DNA from: a virus
DNA: 44,911 bases
Virus record (IMG/VR): IMGVR_UViG_3300037245_001170
Span: 1 to 44,911 of that record
Strand: one strand, 5' to 3'
A program made the translations under genes and the position numbers. Positions 21,666-44,911 of the stretch are shown here, one piece after another (positions within the stretch are counted from its first letter, which is position 1; every line of letters begins with the position of its first letter). The notes under the pieces were generated by a model that made no database searches, was not told the origin of the DNA, and saw only the letters and a list, made by a program, of their open reading frames with translations.

Positions 21666-21694
21666 ATTATACCACAGAATCGAGGACTTGTGAA
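21666..21694 (-). promoter_or_regulatory. Sigma-70 promoter for SGNH gene
   Basis: On the minus strand TTCACA (21694-21689), a 17-bp spacer ending in TGG, then TATAAT (21671-21666). The predicted start of transcription lies at or next to the ATG at 21659, so the mRNA would be leaderless or nearly so. The -35 box overlaps the ribosome site region of the divergent gene at 21695. Confidence 0.75.
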
Positions 21695-28656: not shown

Positions 28657-29349
28657 CTAAAAGTTCATGTCTCCCTGTGAATGGTTCCCCAGTTTCAGTG
28701 TCAGTTGATCGTAATGTTTGCGTAATTTGGCCGTTGATAGAATGTTGTTCTGCCAGAACTCGTCGGACTGGCATGACTTGATTATGCCCTCGATCTCGGC
28801 GGATGTATGCCCATCAATCCGAGAGAGCTTATTAATGTGCTCTGCCCATGTTTGCTCATTCGGGAGAGAGAGTCTCTTCTGCTTCGGGTTTCTCTTCCGT
28901 ATCAGGCTGTCCAATAATAGGGCTAGTCGTAACTCGTCAGAAGTTGCGACGAAAGAAGTTTCTTTTGTAAGAGTTTCTTTTGTATCCCTCAATTTTGAGG
29001 ACCCCTTCGATCCAATATTGGAACCCCGTTCCTTTTTTGGGACAGGTACCCATTTACGGTAATCCGTTTGGACGCCATAGGTTACCCCTATAAGTGTTTC
29101 TTTTTTGAGGATAGCCCTCTTTTGTAATAGCTTGTTTAGGGCTCGTGAGACGCCGCCCCTTCCAAGGCCAGTCGCTTGTGTGAATTGGCTTATTGAGATT
29201 ACGTCCATCTTTTTGTTCCATCCCCAGGTCTTGCGTAAGATCACGCAGAACACTTGCCACTCTTCGCCTGAAATCCGAATTCTTGCTAACGCTTCAAGAA
29301 TCTCGTTGGATATGCGCGTGTATCCGTCTTCAAGTTGTGGTGACGCCAT
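28657..29349 (-). CDS. Replication initiator, phage protein O-like
   Basis: 230 aa. The N-terminus matches the phage replication protein O domain: DGYTRISNEILEALARIRIS, then EWQVFCVILRKTWGWNKK and a winged-helix ISQFTQATGLGRGGVSRALN. This domain binds origin repeats. The C-terminal part is linked by a low-complexity Ser/Lys region (SNIGSKGSSKLRDTKETLT) and would contact the helicase. The promoter at 29476-29504 and an unusually structured leader precede it, so initiation is probably tightly controlled. The only ribosome-site candidate is AGGG at 29359-29362. Confidence 0.83.
   Translation of the reverse strand: MASPQLEDGYTRISNEILEALARIRISGEEWQVFCVILRKTWGWNKKMDVISISQFTQATGLGRGGVSRALNKLLQKRAILKKETLIGVTYGVQTDYRKWVPVPKKERGSNIGSKGSSKLRDTKETLTKETSFVATSDELRLALLLDSLIRKRNPKQKRLSLPNEQTWAEHINKLSRIDGHTSAEIEGIIKSCQSDEFWQNNILSTAKLRKHYDQLTLKLGNHSQGDMNF
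28957..29000. repeat. Repeats and palindrome inside the initiator gene
   Basis: A 13-bp sequence, AGTTTCTTTTGTA (plus strand), occurs at 28957-28969 and 28972-28984, 15 bp apart. A CCTCAA-TT-TTGAGG palindrome follows at 28987-29000. The surroundings are AT-rich. Lambda-type origins lie in the equivalent linker region of gene O, so this may be an O-binding origin. Confidence 0.45.
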
Positions 29350-29356
29350 AGGCGGA

Positions 29357-29471
29357 GGCCCTAAAAAGACAAGCCCGGCTCACACAATTAGTGCATGGCC
29401 CCAAGATTAGAAGGGACACTCCTCGTGTGAACCGGAACTTGAAAGATAAGCATATGATTCTTAGGGCCATG
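29357..29471 (-). promoter_or_regulatory. Structured leader of the initiator mRNA (RNA switch candidate)
   Basis: On the minus strand the leader begins with CATGGCCCTAA (29471-29461). Its CATGGCCC can pair with GGGCCATG (29401-29394). The overlapping GGCCCTAA can instead pair with TTAGGGCC (29364-29357), which holds the ribosome-site candidate of the initiator gene. A further 11-bp stem joins 29435-29425 to 29385-29375 (one G-U pair). The first pairing is interleaved with this stem, while the second encloses it, so two alternative folds are possible. Confidence 0.6.
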
Positions 29472-38232: not shown

Positions 38233-38496
38233 TTACATACTTTTCCAGTAGCAGGTGTCCGAGCAGTACCTAAATTCAGTGCTATCGAATGCTCTTGTTC
38301 TTGTTTTCCCACAGACACAGCATTTGAAGGTATACCCGGCGTTGATTATCCTTGTGATATGGTTTTCAAGTTTATCCCAGTGGGGCTTCATCACACGAAC
38401 AAACTCGGCATCTTGTTCCTCACACCACTTCTTTAGGGCTTCTTCGTTTTCGGTTGCGGTGTATACCGGGTGTCCTTCAGAGTTGAGTTTCACCAT
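38233..38496 (-). CDS. 87-aa zinc-binding protein
   Basis: ATG at 38496 with AGGAGGAAG upstream, overlapping the aminotransferase stop by 7 bp. The helical start (ENEEALKKWCEEQDAEFVR) is followed by a C-terminal zinc site, FKCCVCGKTRTRAF then YCSDTC. The stop codon is embedded in the GATGCAGATT element. Function unknown. Confidence 0.63.
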   Translation of the reverse strand: MVKLNSEGHPVYTATENEEALKKWCEEQDAEFVRVMKPHWDKLENHITRIINAGYTFKCCVCGKTRTRAFDSTEFRYCSDTCYWKSM

Positions 38497-39599
38497 CTTC
38501 TTCCTCCTGATTTGATGGCATCGATCACGAATGCTCTTTGTTCGGGGGTCAGATACGGGAACATTGGGATTGCCAGTGATTGTTTTGCGGCCCGTTCGGC
38601 CTCGGGAAAGTCGCCCTCCTTGTAGCCGAGGTACGTAAAGCATTCCTGCATGTGGAGCGGCAGCGGATAGTATATCTCGGAGCTTATTTGTGCCCCAGCC
38701 AGGAACGCCTTTAGACGGTCGCGGCGGTCGGATCGAATGACGTATTGATTGAACGAGTGCCGCTGACCACGTAAGGTTGCTGGCAGGGTGAGACCATCGA
38801 TGCCTGCAAGCTCTCGGGAATAGATGCGCGCATGATCCCAACGCATCCCAACCCATCGCTCCACTTGTTTTATTCCGACCAGCAGGATCGCAGCCTGTAT
38901 GGCATCGAGGCGGCTGTTTATGCCTATCTCGGCGTGGTAATATTTGGGTCTGCTGCCGTGAGCCCGGATGAGGCGACACCTTTCGGCCAGTTCGTCGTCA
39001 GAGGTCGTAATCATCCCTCCATCTCCGAAGCCGCCAAGGTTCTTTGTGGGATAGAAGCTTAGGCATGCGATATCGCCGATAGAGCCTGCCTCCCTCCCAT
39101 CATATTCGGCTCCGAGCGATTGGGCGGCATCCTCGATGACGGCAACACCACATTGAGCAGCGACATCGTTGATCGGCCCCATCTCGGCGCATTGGCCGAA
39201 GAGGTGGACGGGGATAATCGCTTTTGTGCGTCTGTGTATCTGCTTGATGATTAGTTGCTCGTCGATGTTGAATGTGTCGGGTCGAATGTCAACGAATACG
39301 GGGGTTGCGCCCACTCGGCATATCGCGCTGACGGTTGAAAAGAACGTGTAGGGCGTCGTGATGACCTCGTCGCCTTCGCCTATGCCGAGCGCCATCAAGG
39401 CGATCAGCAGCGCATCGCTACCAGAGGCTACGCCTATCCCGTGTTTTGCGCCGACGTAAGTGGCTACCTCCGCCTCGATCTGTTGTACATTTGCCCCCAT
39501 AATGAAGTCGGCGCTGTCGATTACAGATTCGAGCGCATCCATGATGGCGGCCCTATTAGCTTTGATCTGGGGCTTTAGGTCGAGGGTTGGGACTCTCAT
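38490..39599 (-). CDS. DegT/DnrJ/EryC1-type PLP sugar aminotransferase
   Basis: 369 aa, full length for the family. Motifs in order: VASGSDALLIALMAL (57-71), TTPYTFFST (81-89), VIEDAAQSLGAEYDG with the PLP-ring Asp157 and Gln160, and SFYPTKNLGGFGDGG with the PLP lysine at 186. Then come NSRLDAIQAAIL and an FNQYVIRS segment. The enzyme transfers an amino group from glutamate to a keto-sugar nucleotide. WbpE, WlbC and GnnB are of this type. With the dehydrogenase at 40353 it could make a 3-amino-3-deoxy sugar nucleotide. GGGAG precedes the start. Confidence 0.9.
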   Translation of the reverse strand: MRVPTLDLKPQIKANRAAIMDALESVIDSADFIMGANVQQIEAEVATYVGAKHGIGVASGSDALLIALMALGIGEGDEVITTPYTFFSTVSAICRVGATPVFVDIRPDTFNIDEQLIIKQIHRRTKAIIPVHLFGQCAEMGPINDVAAQCGVAVIEDAAQSLGAEYDGREAGSIGDIACLSFYPTKNLGGFGDGGMITTSDDELAERCRLIRAHGSRPKYYHAEIGINSRLDAIQAAILLVGIKQVERWVGMRWDHARIYSRELAGIDGLTLPATLRGQRHSFNQYVIRSDRRDRLKAFLAGAQISSEIYYPLPLHMQECFTYLGYKEGDFPEAERAAKQSLAIPMFPYLTPEQRAFVIDAIKSGGRRW

Positions 39600-40200: not shown

Positions 40201-40356
40201 TCACTCCGTTGGTCTACTGTCTACCAGTTTTGCATCTACACCTATGTGTTTCATAATACACCCTTGGACATACTCAAGAGCTTCAACCCTGTCGTTGAGC
40301 AGTATCAGTTGGTTCTGGATGGCCTTGAGGGTTTCGATGATGAGGGGCTTACTCAT
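40201..40356 (-). CDS. 51-aa helical protein
   Basis: ATG at 40356, four bases overlapping the dehydrogenase stop (ATGA), with ACAGGAGAA upstream. The sequence LIIETLKAIQNQLILLNDRV followed by EALEYVQG is a continuous amphipathic, probably coiled-coil, helix. Composition, overlap and ribosome site all support a real gene. Confidence 0.58.
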   Translation of the reverse strand: MSKPLIIETLKAIQNQLILLNDRVEALEYVQGCIMKHIGVDAKLVDSRPTE

Positions 40357-41402
40357 TGGGCTTCTCCTGTATCTGAGTCGATTATCTTAATCCTATCATA
40401 TGTGAATGGTTTTCCTTGGATCGCCATTGGTGAGGGTCTGCGCTCCCATGCCTCAACCGTTGTTGGCATGCCGTCACAACCCAGTGACAGTTGAGCGGCT
40501 TCCAGCACCTTGACCACATTTGCGCCGTCGGCCCCATCTGTGAGCGGTTGCTTGTCTTCGGCGATGCAATCGACAAAATGCTGGCACTCGGCCCTGAGCG
40601 GTTCGGTCATATCGAGATTGGGGATATACACATCCCCATCTTTGTGGATGATTGTCAGTTTTCCACCGCTCTTTGTGTCGTCGAATACGGTCATCTGTTC
40701 GCTGCCGACGACCGTTAATTTTCGCACCTTCTCAGGGGCCAGCCAACTCACCTGAATCTGCGCCATCCGGCCGTCAGGCCACTTTATGTTCACGGAGACG
40801 ACATCTTCAACGCCCTCTTGCAGATACGCTCCCCCTCGGGCGCTCACGCTTTCGGGCATACCCCCGAGCAGATGCAGGGCTACGGAAATGTCGTGTGGCG
40901 CGAGGCTCCATAGCGCATTCTCGTCTTGGCGGATCGTGCCGAGATTCAGTCGCTGCGAGGATATGTAGTATGTCTCGCCCCACTCGCCGAGATTGATAAT
41001 CCTTTTCAGGTGAACGATTACGGGATGGTACAGCAGTAAGTGCCCGACCATTAGTTTGAGATTCGCGGCCTCGGCGAGCGCGACAAGTTCCTCTGCATGA
41101 TCGGCTCTCAGGGCCAACGGTTTCTCGACGAACACATGCTTACCGGCTTCGAGGGCCGCCTTGGCGAGAGCGTAGTGGGTGGGCGAGGGCGTGGATATCA
41201 CGACGGCCTGAATCGAGTCCAGCAGCAGGATATCCTCAAAGCGGCTTGTCACGCTGGTGCAGGGATATATATCAGCCATCGTCTTACATGTGGCTTTGTC
41301 AGAATCGCAGCAGTAAACCAAGTTGACATCAGGGAGTTCGTGGAACACACGGACGAGGTTCTTGCCCCATGCTCCGCATCCGACAACAGCGACTTTAATC
41401 AT
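40353..41402 (-). CDS. Gfo/Idh/MocA-family sugar-nucleotide dehydrogenase
   Basis: 349 aa, full length. The Rossmann start IKVAVVGCGAWGKNL binds NAD(P). The catalytic-lysine motif HVFVEKPLAL has Lys94. It is followed by LMVGHLLLYHP, then QDENALWSLAPHDISVALHLLG with the catalytic His, as in WbpB/WlbA and GnnA. Those enzymes oxidise C3 of UDP-GlcNAc-type sugars to feed an aminotransferase. The DegT aminotransferase sits three small genes downstream in the same unit. GGAGGAA precedes the start. Confidence 0.88.
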   Translation of the reverse strand: MIKVAVVGCGAWGKNLVRVFHELPDVNLVYCCDSDKATCKTMADIYPCTSVTSRFEDILLLDSIQAVVISTPSPTHYALAKAALEAGKHVFVEKPLALRADHAEELVALAEAANLKLMVGHLLLYHPVIVHLKRIINLGEWGETYYISSQRLNLGTIRQDENALWSLAPHDISVALHLLGGMPESVSARGGAYLQEGVEDVVSVNIKWPDGRMAQIQVSWLAPEKVRKLTVVGSEQMTVFDDTKSGGKLTIIHKDGDVYIPNLDMTEPLRAECQHFVDCIAEDKQPLTDGADGANVVKVLEAAQLSLGCDGMPTTVEAWERRPSPMAIQGKPFTYDRIKIIDSDTGEAQ

Positions 41403-41679
41403 TGGATTCCTCCGGCTGAACTTGGACTCTGGCAGCTTCTATGGGCCATAGGTCTCCATTGTCGTCCAACACGATCACGTAGTTTTCGTTGTGAAAGGCG
41501 ACCTGATAGCGCGTATCCCTCACGAATCGGTCAAATGGCGCCGCTCCCTCGACATGAGGCCATCTCTTGCGCGGCATCTCCCCAAACTCTGCCCCTTCGA
41601 CCCATCCCTCTCCTGTGACATAGGTCAATTCTGCTTGTGGTTTTACCTTCACATATCTCCCAACGAGCAGACTATTCAT
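41395..41679 (-). CDS. 94-aa protein, first gene after the structured leader
   Basis: ATG at 41679 with GAAAGGAG upstream. Beta-rich opening (LLVGRYVKVKPQAELTYVTG), then RFVRDTRYQVAFHNENYVIV and LDDNGDLWPIEAARVQV, suggesting a small barrel. No family was recognised. It overlaps the dehydrogenase start by 8 bp and is the first product of the leftward unit. Confidence 0.6.
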   Translation of the reverse strand: MNSLLVGRYVKVKPQAELTYVTGEGWVEGAEFGEMPRKRWPHVEGAAPFDRFVRDTRYQVAFHNENYVIVLDDNGDLWPIEAARVQVQPEESND

Positions 41680-41700
41680 GAGAATCTCCTTTCAAAGTAA

Positions 41701-41785
41701 AAGCCCCTGCGACATTGACGCGAGGGGAACTGGAATTCGCCGGGTCGCGTTCATCGCAGGGGCTTAATCTCGGATTCCAGTTCCC
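41701..41785 (-). promoter_or_regulatory. Leader with two interleaved perfect 12-bp inverted repeats
   Basis: Repeat pair 1: AAGCCCCTGCGA (41701-41712) and its complement at 41754-41765. Pair 2: GGGAACTGGAAT (41725-41736) and its complement at 41774-41785. On the minus-strand RNA the order is A, B, A', B', so the stems cross. The B stem is followed by TTTTACTTT (41702-41693), a terminator-like end, and the RNA is predicted to begin at stem A. The layout suits an attenuator or pseudoknot, or a protein-binding DNA site. Confidence 0.75.
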
Positions 41786-41791
41786 ATGCTA

Positions 41792-41820
41792 ATTATACCA
41801 CGCTTTCCCAATATCGTCAA
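41792..41820 (-). promoter_or_regulatory. Strong leftward sigma-70 promoter
   Basis: TTGACG (41820-41815), a 17-bp spacer ending TGG, then TATAAT (41797-41792). Transcription should start near 41785, at the first base of the structured leader. It diverges from the late promoter at 41865. Confidence 0.8.
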
Positions 41821-41864
41821 CTGCAATAAATAGACTGCTTATGTAGCATTCTGACGATGTGCTA

Positions 41865-41893
41865 TTGACAAGCGAGTATTATGGTGGTACACT
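41865..41893 (+). promoter_or_regulatory. Rightward promoter for the packaging/structural genes
   Basis: TTGACA (41865-41870), a 17-bp spacer ending TGG, then TACACT (41888-41893) just before the small terminase gene. The predicted start near 41900 leaves almost no leader before the TTG at 41903. Confidence 0.72.
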
Positions 41894-41902
41894 GTAGTCA
41901 TA

Positions 41903-42469
41903 TTGATACACTCATCGATAGATGACGTTTCCACGTATCGACCTTCAGGTACCGAGCGCCGGGCCTTGGCACAGGTCGATATCGTCCATTCGCCTGATGG
42001 CTCAATCGATATTGTGGACAATACCCCAACGAAGTGGGAACCCTCCGACAAGCAAACCGCATTCCTTGAGCATCTTCTGGACAGCGAAAGCGGCAACATG
42101 AGACCTGCTGAGGCGATGCAGGCGGTTAAAGGCACCATGCGCGAGTTAAAGTGTTGGTGTCGTAGGGAGCCGGAATTTCTTGCGTTGTTCAAGCAGAGAG
42201 CAATTGAGAGATTCGAGGTATCCGACCTGATTGCCGACCTTACTATCGCGGCCTCTCTGGAGGGTGGCAAACTCCCAACTCAAGCTGTGAGATGGGGCAT
42301 CCAGGCTCGCATGAAGACTCGGGACTTCATTCACAGACAAGAGATTCGCTATATCCAGATCAACCAGCATTTCAATGTGGGGCCACAGGCCGACGACGAC
42401 GACGAAGCGTTACAGAAAGTGATTGATGCTGCAAGCCAAACAGTCCAAGGTGCTATCGCCCAAGGATAA
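41903..42469 (+). CDS. Putative terminase small subunit
   Basis: 188 aa. The start is uncertain: the TTG at 41903 begins the frame and would be leaderless. The centre has a helix-turn-helix-like run (KWEPSDKQTAFLEHLLDS, then EAMQAVKGTMRELKCWCRR, then FLALFKQRAIERFEV) as in small terminases that recognise packaging sites, and the C-terminus is helical and acidic. It overlaps the large terminase by 44 bp. The call rests on position and general pattern. Confidence 0.65.
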   Translation: MIHSSIDDVSTYRPSGTERRALAQVDIVHSPDGSIDIVDNTPTKWEPSDKQTAFLEHLLDSESGNMRPAEAMQAVKGTMRELKCWCRREPEFLALFKQRAIERFEVSDLIADLTIAASLEGGKLPTQAVRWGIQARMKTRDFIHRQEIRYIQINQHFNVGPQADDDDEALQKVIDAASQTVQGAIAQG

Positions 42470-44027
42470 GGCGAAGATTGCCGCCGAGATTTTACGGGTG
42501 CGGAATGACTTGCCATATTTTTTGGAAGAGTATGTCTGGACTCTGGATGAGGATGCGGATACCAAGAACGGCGAAGACCCAATCAAGCGGTTCCCCTCCC
42601 GCGCTGATCGACCGGAACTCTACGAGCTTGCAGAGTTGTGGTTGAACAAAGAGGGAGACCCCGACCAAAATCGCTTAGTCATCGACAAGAGCCGTCAGAT
42701 GATGGGCACATGGGTATTCGTCGCCTGCGATTTGTGGGACACCTGTTTCCATAAGGGCGTTCGCACGTTCTTCCAGAGCAAGAAGGAGAAGGACGCGAAG
42801 AATATCCTTGAGCGTGCATGGTTCATCTACCAGAAACTCCCCAAGTTCTTGCAGATTCAGCATCAGAAGCTCGACACAGAGCTTATCTTCCCGACGCTCA
42901 ATTCGCTTATATGGGCGATCCCGCAGGGTGGCGATCATATCCGATCTTATACTGCTTCCAACATCTTCTCAGATGAAGCGGCCAAGCAGCCGGAGTTCGC
43001 AGAGGCTATGACGGCATCTATCCCAAGCATAGGCAAGCATGGGCGCCTGCACGCTCTTAGCACCGCACGCGGCAAAGCAAATGCTTTCTATCGGTTTCGC
43101 AAGATGCCTGCTGTTATCAAGAAGATTGAGGGATTCCCTCTTCTCAAGCCGAACCTGAATGCGCGAAATATGGTAACAGCGTTCCTCGATTACCGGATGA
43201 ATCCGAAATATGACGAAGAGTGGATCAAGCGGACACGCGCCTCGATGGAAGAGGCCAACTGGAACCGCGAATATGAGGGCTCGTATGAAGAGGCGGTAGG
43301 CACTCCCGTTCTGAAGGTCAATCCTCTTATCCATTTCCGGCCATTAACCCACATCAGCGGCAAGCCGCTCTTGAGAGGGTGGGACTTCGGGTATCGGCGT
43401 CCAGCCGTCATTGTGACGCAGATGAATCAGAAGGATCAGTGGTGTTGGCTGTGGGGCGAAATCGGCGAGGATGAGACTACCCGCGATTTTGCTGCTCGTG
43501 TCTTCGATATGTGCGATGCCCAATTCCCACAGGCAAAAGATGTTAATGGGCGCCCATTGAAACATCTGTGGCTGGACTTCTGCGATCCTCAAGGGACAGA
43601 GGTTTCACGTGGAACAGGAACGTCAGATATTCAGGATTTGTGCGCGGTTCACGAAGAACATTATCGCAAGATGATGGATATGAACTATCGCAAGCGCGAC
43701 TTTGAAATCGGGATAACGCTGATCCGTGAAAAGTTGAAACTTAGGAACGATGGCGAGCCGGGTATGTTGGTCAGCGATGAGTTCGAGGACTGCAAGGATG
43801 CGCTTACGGGAGGCTATTGTTTCCCCGATGATCGCAAGAGCGGAGCCAAGAACGAGTATCCGGCCGATGACGGCTATTTCATTCACCAGATGGATGCTGC
43901 CAGATACATTGCGAATTGCAGGTTCGAGCCGGCCGAGTCAAGGGTGAGGACTGACATGGTTCCTTGGCCGAAACCTTGGGAAAATATGGATGGAGCCGAA
44001 ATAGCGAGGCAGGGAGCATATGCCTGA
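42426..44027 (+). CDS. terL: Terminase large subunit
   Basis: About 533 aa from the ATG at 42426 (a TTG three bases earlier is also open). The ATPase half has a Walker A-like VIDKSRQMMGTW, then a FFQSKKEKDAKNI segment and Walker B SNIFSDEAAKQ. The nuclease half shows GWDFGYRRPAVIV with the first metal Asp, LWLDFCDPQGTE, and a final HQMDAARYI. It cuts and pumps DNA into the head through the portal encoded next (8-bp overlap). Confidence 0.9.
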   Translation: MLQAKQSKVLSPKDKAKIAAEILRVRNDLPYFLEEYVWTLDEDADTKNGEDPIKRFPSRADRPELYELAELWLNKEGDPDQNRLVIDKSRQMMGTWVFVACDLWDTCFHKGVRTFFQSKKEKDAKNILERAWFIYQKLPKFLQIQHQKLDTELIFPTLNSLIWAIPQGGDHIRSYTASNIFSDEAAKQPEFAEAMTASIPSIGKHGRLHALSTARGKANAFYRFRKMPAVIKKIEGFPLLKPNLNARNMVTAFLDYRMNPKYDEEWIKRTRASMEEANWNREYEGSYEEAVGTPVLKVNPLIHFRPLTHISGKPLLRGWDFGYRRPAVIVTQMNQKDQWCWLWGEIGEDETTRDFAARVFDMCDAQFPQAKDVNGRPLKHLWLDFCDPQGTEVSRGTGTSDIQDLCAVHEEHYRKMMDMNYRKRDFEIGITLIREKLKLRNDGEPGMLVSDEFEDCKDALTGGYCFPDDRKSGAKNEYPADDGYFIHQMDAARYIANCRFEPAESRVRTDMVPWPKPWENMDGAEIARQGAYA

Positions 44028-44911
44028 AGAAACCGGATTACAGACAATCGAAGAGCAGATAGAGTCGTATCCTGGCGTCAAGAATCAGAAGGGTCTCGCT
44101 CAGAAGGTGAGCGGCTGGTTTCAGGAAGCAAAAGACGGCCGCAGCACTCGTGACCCTAAATTGCTTGAGCAATACAAGATTTTTCGGTTCTATGGCAGAC
44201 AAGCGAAGTTCCCGTGGCGCAGCGATATCTATATCCCAATGGGACATGTCAACGTGCTCGTCAACACGGCGAAGATGGTCACGGCGATTCTTGGTTCTGA
44301 TCCGTTCTTCAGGACTACAGCGCGTTCGTTGCGGTTTGCCCAGAGTGAGGAATTCGTTGAGCAGTTGATGTACGAGCAGCTTGACGAGATGGGGTGGTCT
44401 CGCGTGCTGCATGACTGGGCTCTCGATCACTACATATTTGGGCTGGGCATCCTCAAAGGCTTCTGGAAATTCGAGGAAGTCGAGGAAGAGACGGAAGTCA
44501 CCAAGTTCCGGCCAGTATTTATTAAGGCTGGCGACCAACTAATAGAGAGCGAGCCGGAGCCGTATACGGAGATAGAGACAACGAGGAGGGTTGTCTTCGA
44601 TGGACCTGCATTCGAGGTCGTCAACATCTTCGACTTCTATCCCGACCCCCACGCCACAAGCATCAAGGATGCTCGATATGTGATCCATCGCAGAGAAGTC
44701 TCGATAGACCATTTGCGCTCGATGGCAGCGAAGGGGGTCTACAGTGAAGAAGCGGTCAACATCATTGCTGCACAGCGGATGGAGGGCCGTTCCGACAACT
44801 CCGAAAAAGTCTCAATCGACGACATCGAAGATAACCTGATCGCCAACGAGACGAAGGCTCCAATACAGATTCTTGAGTGCTGGACTCCGACGCGAAAGAT
44901 AGTTGTCGGCC
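44020..44911 (+). CDS. Portal protein, N-terminal part
   Basis: The ATG at 44020 overlaps the large terminase stop and has AGGGAGCAT upstream. The first 297 codons are in this window and continue in phase at base 1. Features are SGWFQEAKDGRSTRDPKLLEQ, then FPWRSDIYIPMGHVNVLVNT, a tail-like WALDHYIFGLGILKGFW, and FEVVNIFDFYPDPHAT followed by YVIHRREVS, typical of podovirus portals. The reading frame has no stop because the window ends inside it. Confidence 0.88.
   Translation, partial: MPEETGLQTIEEQIESYPGVKNQKGLAQKVSGWFQEAKDGRSTRDPKLLEQYKIFRFYGRQAKFPWRSDIYIPMGHVNVLVNTAKMVTAILGSDPFFRTTARSLRFAQSEEFVEQLMYEQLDEMGWSRVLHDWALDHYIFGLGILKGFWKFEEVEEETEVTKFRPVFIKAGDQLIESEPEPYTEIETTRRVVFDGPAFEVVNIFDFYPDPHATSIKDARYVIHRREVSIDHLRSMAAKGVYSEEAVNIIAAQRMEGRSDNSEKVSIDDIEDNLIANETKAPIQILECWTPTRKIVVG
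44785..44911 (+). repeat. 127-bp direct repeat of window start (assembly overlap)
   Basis: Bases 44785-44911 are identical to 1-127. The portal reading frame runs through the joint without change. A repeat of exactly 127 bp is the usual signature of a circular contig from a k=127 assembly, not necessarily a physical terminal repeat. It indicates a complete, circular or circularly permuted genome of 44,784 bp. Confidence 0.92.

Follow-up and report, generated by a model that had tools for sequence, protein, structure and literature searches.

The window, by which we mean the whole 44,911-nucleotide stretch of viral DNA that was analyzed, has a portal gene spanning its two ends (44020 to 44911 and 1 to 1125) and a repeated stretch at both ends (LIANETKA), which fits a complete phage genome that is circular or has terminal repeats. 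On the minus strand, an element termed leader 1 precedes a long leftward early operon, which begins with P0001 and includes sugar-nucleotide genes for a DegT/DnrJ-type aminotransferase and a Gfo/Idh/MocA oxidoreductase (38490 to 39599 and 40353 to 41402). The initial annotation had placed the small-terminase gene about 120 bp away, and the small-terminase open reading frame on the plus strand does start at 41903, at a distance of about 118 bp. A second element, leader 2, lies directly upstream of the gene for phage replication protein O (repO). The features of both leaders are collected in Table 1. A further strong promoter (11/12) was observed at 21666 to 21694 on the minus strand; its predicted +1 coincides with the ATG of the reading frame MKKLLLRGIFL..., which suggests a leaderless transcript.

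Table 1. Predicted elements of the two leaders in the window and the genes below them
Feature	Position	Strand	Details
Promoter P1	41792..41820	-	TTGACG, 17 bp, TATAAT; 11/12; extended -10 (TG before -10); predicted +1 = 41785
Leader 1 B' arm	41774..41785	-	RNA +1 to +12, GGGAACUGGAAU; transcript 5' end
Leader 1 A' arm	41752..41765	-	RNA +21 to +34; 5' arm of terminator-like hairpin; 14 bp including one G-U
Inner stem C (minor), 5' arm	41745..41750	-	ACGCGA
Leader 1 B arm	41725..41736	-	RNA +50 to +61; within A'A loop; complement of RNA 5' end
Inner stem C (minor), 3' arm	41718..41723	-	UCGCGU
Leader 1 A arm	41701..41714	-	RNA +72 to +85; 3' arm of terminator-like hairpin
Leader 1 U-tract	41694..41702	-	UUUUACUUU; first two bases are part of stem A
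Leader 1 Shine-Dalgarno	41686..41692	-	AAAGGAG
P0001, first gene of leader 1 transcript	41395..41679	-	Early gene, 94 aa; no family match
Promoter P2	29476..29504	-	TTGACA, 17 bp, TATAAT; 12/12; extended -10; strongest promoter of the window
Leader 2 B' arm	29459..29470	-	AUGGCCCUAAGA; begins at predicted +1 (29469/29470)
Leader 2 A' arm	29423..29436	-	
Leader 2 B arm	29395..29406	-	Inside A'A loop
Leader 2 A arm	29374..29387	-	
Leader 2 U-rich tail	29362..29373	-	CUUGUCUUUUUA
Phage replication protein O gene (repO), directly under leader 2	28657..29349	-	PF04492 (Phage_rep_O), E 8.6e-22; TIGR01610

Leader 1 contains two perfect 12-bp inverted repeats, A (41701 to 41712, AAGCCCCTGCGA, pairing with 41754 to 41765) and B (41725 to 41736, GGGAACTGGAAT, pairing with 41774 to 41785). 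The stems interleave, and when G-U pairs and one mismatch are allowed they extend to 14 bp for A and 15 bp for B; the A'A hairpin is further lengthened by the minor inner stem C. These crossing repeats, together with a strong promoter at the element, had been pointed out in the initial annotation, and both were recovered as described. The assignment of the stems had to be reversed: transcription had been thought to start at stem A and the T-rich tail to follow stem B, whereas the predicted +1 falls on stem B and the tail (TTTTACTTT, 41702 to 41694) follows stem A (41701). Because the predicted +1 of P1 is the first base of the arm at 41774 to 41785, the RNA reads B'(1-12)-A'(21-34)-B(50-61)-A(72-85), followed by UUACUUUG, AAAGGAG, and an AUG at nucleotide 107 (41679). 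We read leader 1 as an RNA-level element of the minus strand. An HDV-like ribozyme topology was also considered and rejected, since there was no P4 hairpin and no Rfam match.

The same B'-A'-B-A order and a U-rich tail were found in leader 2, which has no sequence similarity to leader 1. The B' arm of leader 2 has a third pairing option, the U-tract plus the AGGGCC that immediately precedes the start of repO, and this could influence translation. On the minus strand, no crossing structure elsewhere in the window ranks above these two leaders. The leader 1 repeats are the sole crossing pair in the 44.9-kb window with both arms of at least 9 bp; crossing pairs of 11 to 12 bp occurred in none of 40 dinucleotide shuffles, and the fold energy of leader 1 lay far under that of shuffled sequences (z -5.1). 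The two leaders scored 61.7 and 62.0, while 200 window shuffles, with about 9,000 promoter-like sites, gave no site scoring 45 or more.

Close relatives of the phage were found neither in IMG/VR nor among GenBank phages when the leader, P0001, TerS, and TerL were used as queries; the best TerL matches were at about 30 to 35%. The criteria of the architecture search were derived from the two leaders of the window and afterwards applied to independent loci. Among the TerL relatives there was one further case, L013 (score 53.3), located directly before a gene for a DnaD-like helicase loader, and about 1.9 Mb of additional sequence (80 loci of capsid relatives and the full contigs of TerL/capsid relatives) contained none of comparable strength. 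A pattern search with the A arm gave five matches, none with the second stem, which were taken as chance, and a crossing repeat in L003 was discarded as low-complexity polypurine. Promoter-independent scans of all large-loop terminators were swamped by GC-rich coding noise. Separately, the large-terminase gene of L013 (5965 to 8475) was seen to carry a long, in-frame, intein-like insertion (CYSDDTEV... to ...AHWNGN) right after the motif LLRGWDFG, and the TerL homologs of L018, L019, L020, L022, L023, and L026 are present as two separate open reading frames for the N- and C-terminal halves, which suggests that introns, inteins, or gene splits recur at one site.

With the RepO protein as bait, an independent set of 80 IMG/VR loci was obtained. 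Scanning these loci identified L305 (63.0), L322 (56.5), and the weaker L294 (43.9), all just upstream of repO, as well as a match of doubtful geometry, L318, in the same position; L308 and L291 were added by promoter-independent examination of the RepO loci. L309 has the same design ahead of a gene without assigned function. Two possible members with deviating geometry, L285 (369 to 275, minus strand) and L318 (9860 to 9990, plus strand), have a terminator hairpin loop that complements the 5' region of the leader. The element was absent from the RepO genes of the six cultured phages and of the Nitrospirota genomes that were checked.

The dimensions of the leaders were closely similar. The distance from +1 to ATG was 106 to 130 nt in seven of nine leaders, B' lies about 115 to 130 nt ahead of the ATG in L305, L322, L294, L308, L291, and L013, and the end of A is 10 to 24 nt from the ATG in 8/9. 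Stem A, of 9 to 14 bp, is followed by at least 6 U in 10 positions in leaders 1 and 2, L305, L322, L294, L308, and L013. The hairpin stands directly before a replication-initiator gene in leader 2, L305, L322, L294, L308, L291, and L013, but not in leader 1. Since wholly different arms stand before homologous repO genes, the complementarity has been kept as the sequence was replaced. Such recurrence with replaced arms would be the equivalent of compensatory change, here drawn from leaders that include no closely related pair for a direct count.

Several comparisons were made with chance expectation. A permutation test used 34 leaders that combine a promoter with a large-loop terminator hairpin, and their 5' ends were re-paired randomly with the loops. 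Pairing between loop and 5' end of -23 kcal/mol or lower was observed twice (0.002 cases expected), and of -16 kcal/mol or lower three times (0.05 expected). Just upstream of 9,142 control open reading frame starts, 68 large-loop terminators were found, and loop-to-upstream complementarity at p<=0.01 was present in four of these hairpins, all four of which precede replication initiators. A terminator hairpin was located directly upstream in only 8 of the 80 RepO loci, with complementarity at p<=0.01 in 5/8. In six RepO leaders that were chosen and ranked without using promoters, a promoter of at least 9/12 sets the +1 no more than 2 nt from B' in five, compared with a background of 1%. B adjoins A, with a gap of 0 to 10 nt, in 9/9 leaders. 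Under random placement, a B arm so consistently on the loop's 3' side has a p value of about 3e-4, though some of the nine leaders had themselves been picked up by the architecture search. Energies of long gapped duplexes were uninformative.

Like the architecture, the position of +1, and the recurrence with unrelated sequences, the order of folding in silico was shown by computation. For RNA prefixes of leader 1, the minimum-energy fold holds the entire B'B helix from about nt 60 to about nt 80 and then A'A once A is out. The initial annotation had supposed that A-A' forms first and blocks B-B'; the calculated order is the opposite, with B-B' complete first and dominating the nascent fold until A is transcribed. 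The nascent fold keeps B'B until A emerges in eight of nine leaders, and A'A takes over after A and the tail are out in seven of nine, L322 and L291 showing no swap. B' pairs with the loop segment and with neither A nor A'. By secondary-structure energies, from programs that exclude pseudoknots, A'A alone is favored over B'B alone. Classical terminator scores were borderline (leader 1, 5.2; leader 2, -7.9; L013, -5.5); the U-tracts are imperfect, and the hairpin loops are far bigger than those of typical terminators.

The reading that we prefer, with a probability of about 0.55, is that the leader may be a cis-acting RNA and attenuate transcription, with the mRNA 5' end pairing to the loop of a terminator hairpin. 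RNA polymerase would start exactly at B', and B, once transcribed, would pair with the RNA's own 5' end while sitting in the loop of the prospective terminator hairpin, 0 to 10 nt ahead of the 3' arm A. A'A could form beside the U-tract as A emerges, and transcription would stop before the Shine-Dalgarno sequence and ATG. B'-B, formed earlier and seated in the loop beside A, would gate the timely formation of A'A, either by delaying or topologically blocking it, giving read-through, or by locking it in a pseudoknot. The outcome at this gate would set expression of the downstream gene, mostly a phage replication initiator. That A'A terminates transcription, that B'-B gates A'A, and the direction of the effect are what we infer. 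The design is probably a built-in switch for making the downstream gene product, usually the starter of DNA replication. That an early transcript might open with an attenuator or a pseudoknot had been proposed from the outset, and that proposal is supported by the +1 on a stem, an A hairpin with a terminator-like tail, the Shine-Dalgarno sequence and ATG that follow, and the recurrence of the design with different sequence.

B'B and A'A are not strictly exclusive and could coexist as a pseudoknot, which leads to an alternative based on RNA stability. Here the 5'-terminal nucleotide would be stacked at the junction and the 5' triphosphate buried, so that the mRNA or the terminated leader of about 95 nt resists 5'-end-dependent decay, and termination control would be secondary. 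B' starts right at +1 and so leaves no 5' overhang; the gap between B and A is 0 to 10 nt, and the other linker, of 8 to 39 nt, is enough to span the B'B helix. These features fit simultaneous helices, so a 5'-protecting pseudoknot stays a strong rival. However, 5' protection needs neither the U-tract nor placement just before the Shine-Dalgarno sequence, the 8-nt linker of leader 1 is short for two fully stacked helices, and the energies given above, which exclude pseudoknots, put A'A alone ahead. On balance, we regard this alternative as possible, with odds well short of even. H-type pseudoknots such as the T4 gene 32 leader likewise show interleaved pairing where a phage mRNA begins, but the leaders here have stems of 8 to 12 bp, a long A'-B linker, a short B-A linker, and a terminator tail afterwards. 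The usual linker arrangement of H-type pseudoknots is the reverse.

The complementarity is particular to each leader, so that terminated leaders could in principle act in trans. There is no cross-pairing between leaders 1 and 2 (-21 to -24 kcal/mol within a leader, but -5 to -9 kcal/mol between the two), and the sequences are wholly different between phages. Terminated leaders might accumulate and pair through their exposed B loops with the initial 12 nt of newly made transcripts from their own phage. Termination would then shift, and the replication initiator would come under dosage or copy-number feedback. There are precedents in P4 CI RNA and IsrK, phage leader RNAs that act in trans (PMC4825925), but intramolecular pairing is expected to beat pairing in trans, and there was no sign of processing sites or of an independent RNA gene. 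Action of this kind seems doubtful to us.

HK022 put RNA consists of two non-crossing stem-loops and acts on RNA polymerase at distant terminators (PMC9378689). Like put, the leader is an RNA element that stands where an early phage transcript begins and may affect termination, and its location at early promoters recalls that of putL just downstream of PL (PMC9378689). A folded leader could in this way stay on RNA polymerase and allow read-through of downstream terminators in the long early operon. The stem-loops of put are, however, separate and conserved in sequence, while the stems of the leaders cross and share no sequence; moreover, the leader hairpin is itself terminator-like and stands right before the gene, and there is no Rfam match. 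Processive antitermination of the put type is improbable.

The initial annotation had also offered a packaging or terminase site as an alternative, and two dyads near the small-terminase gene might indeed be bound at the DNA level by terminase, a recombinase, or a repressor. A packaging site is disfavored by the second copy (29362 to 29470), which lies before repO, 12 kb from the terminase genes, and by the copies in other phages, which precede repO or a helicase-loader gene rather than terminase genes. Both copies in the window have arms starting at +1, followed by a U-tract and a gene, and they share no sequence, making a DNA-level site very unlikely. Independent inverted repeats without function could account at low odds for any single case, such as L013 alone, which was marginal by itself in the 34-leader permutation (chance expectation of about 0.05), but in view of the shuffle and permutation tests, the recurrence, and the specificity for replication initiators, we give chance hardly any weight.

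Returning to attenuation by the leader's own 5' end, we found no precedent for this architecture in a literature search. At the gathering threshold, Rfam gave no match in the whole window, and at E<=10 there was nothing credible at 41600 to 41960, including no P1/P4 c4/CI antisense RNA family. The closest parallels concern replication control. In the rep mRNA of pT181 and pIP501, the terminator before the rep gene has its 5' arm bound by a pre-emptor, and the outcome is decided by a counter-transcribed antisense RNA (PMC5703833). As in this plasmid copy-number control, a terminator-like hairpin directly before a replication-initiator gene would be gated by an upstream complementary leader segment; unlike in those plasmids, it is the exact 5' end of the RNA that pairs, and it pairs with the terminator loop rather than a stem arm. 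Nor is an antisense promoter evident here: none above 8/12 was found in eight of nine leaders, with 9/12 in the AT-rich L013, and antisense-RNA control was rejected because no consistent antisense promoter was seen. In phage P4, the replication genes are blocked by premature termination, with CI RNA pairing with seqA and seqC (PMC4825925). What the leaders would share with P4 CI RNA and Gifsy-1 IsrK is control of phage replication or regulatory genes by premature termination in a leader, brought about by RNA-RNA complementarity within one transcript (PMC4825925). They differ from P4 CI, a processed antisense RNA with sites on either side in a longer leader, in that all elements fit into about 100 nt and the 5' terminus serves as the complement.

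Judged from sequence, the same RNA design occupies the first ~100 bases of two messages of the window's phage and of replication-gene messages of several unrelated phages. We consider the chances about even that this is a hitherto undescribed leader class spread over phages of unrelated sequence, in which the first ~12 nt interlock with the terminator loop to form a self-contained, sequence-independent switch, or a dosage sensor in trans, through which the phage commits to replicating its DNA. Covariance-model searches would be blind to such a switch, because only geometry and self-complementarity are conserved. The simplicity of the design, a 5' end that pairs with a terminator loop, may also make it usable as a synthetic regulator. 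The lytic commitment of a phage depends on a well-timed replication initiator, and if the reading is true, a compact RNA switch before that initiator, kept through full sequence replacement, would constitute a new layer of control.
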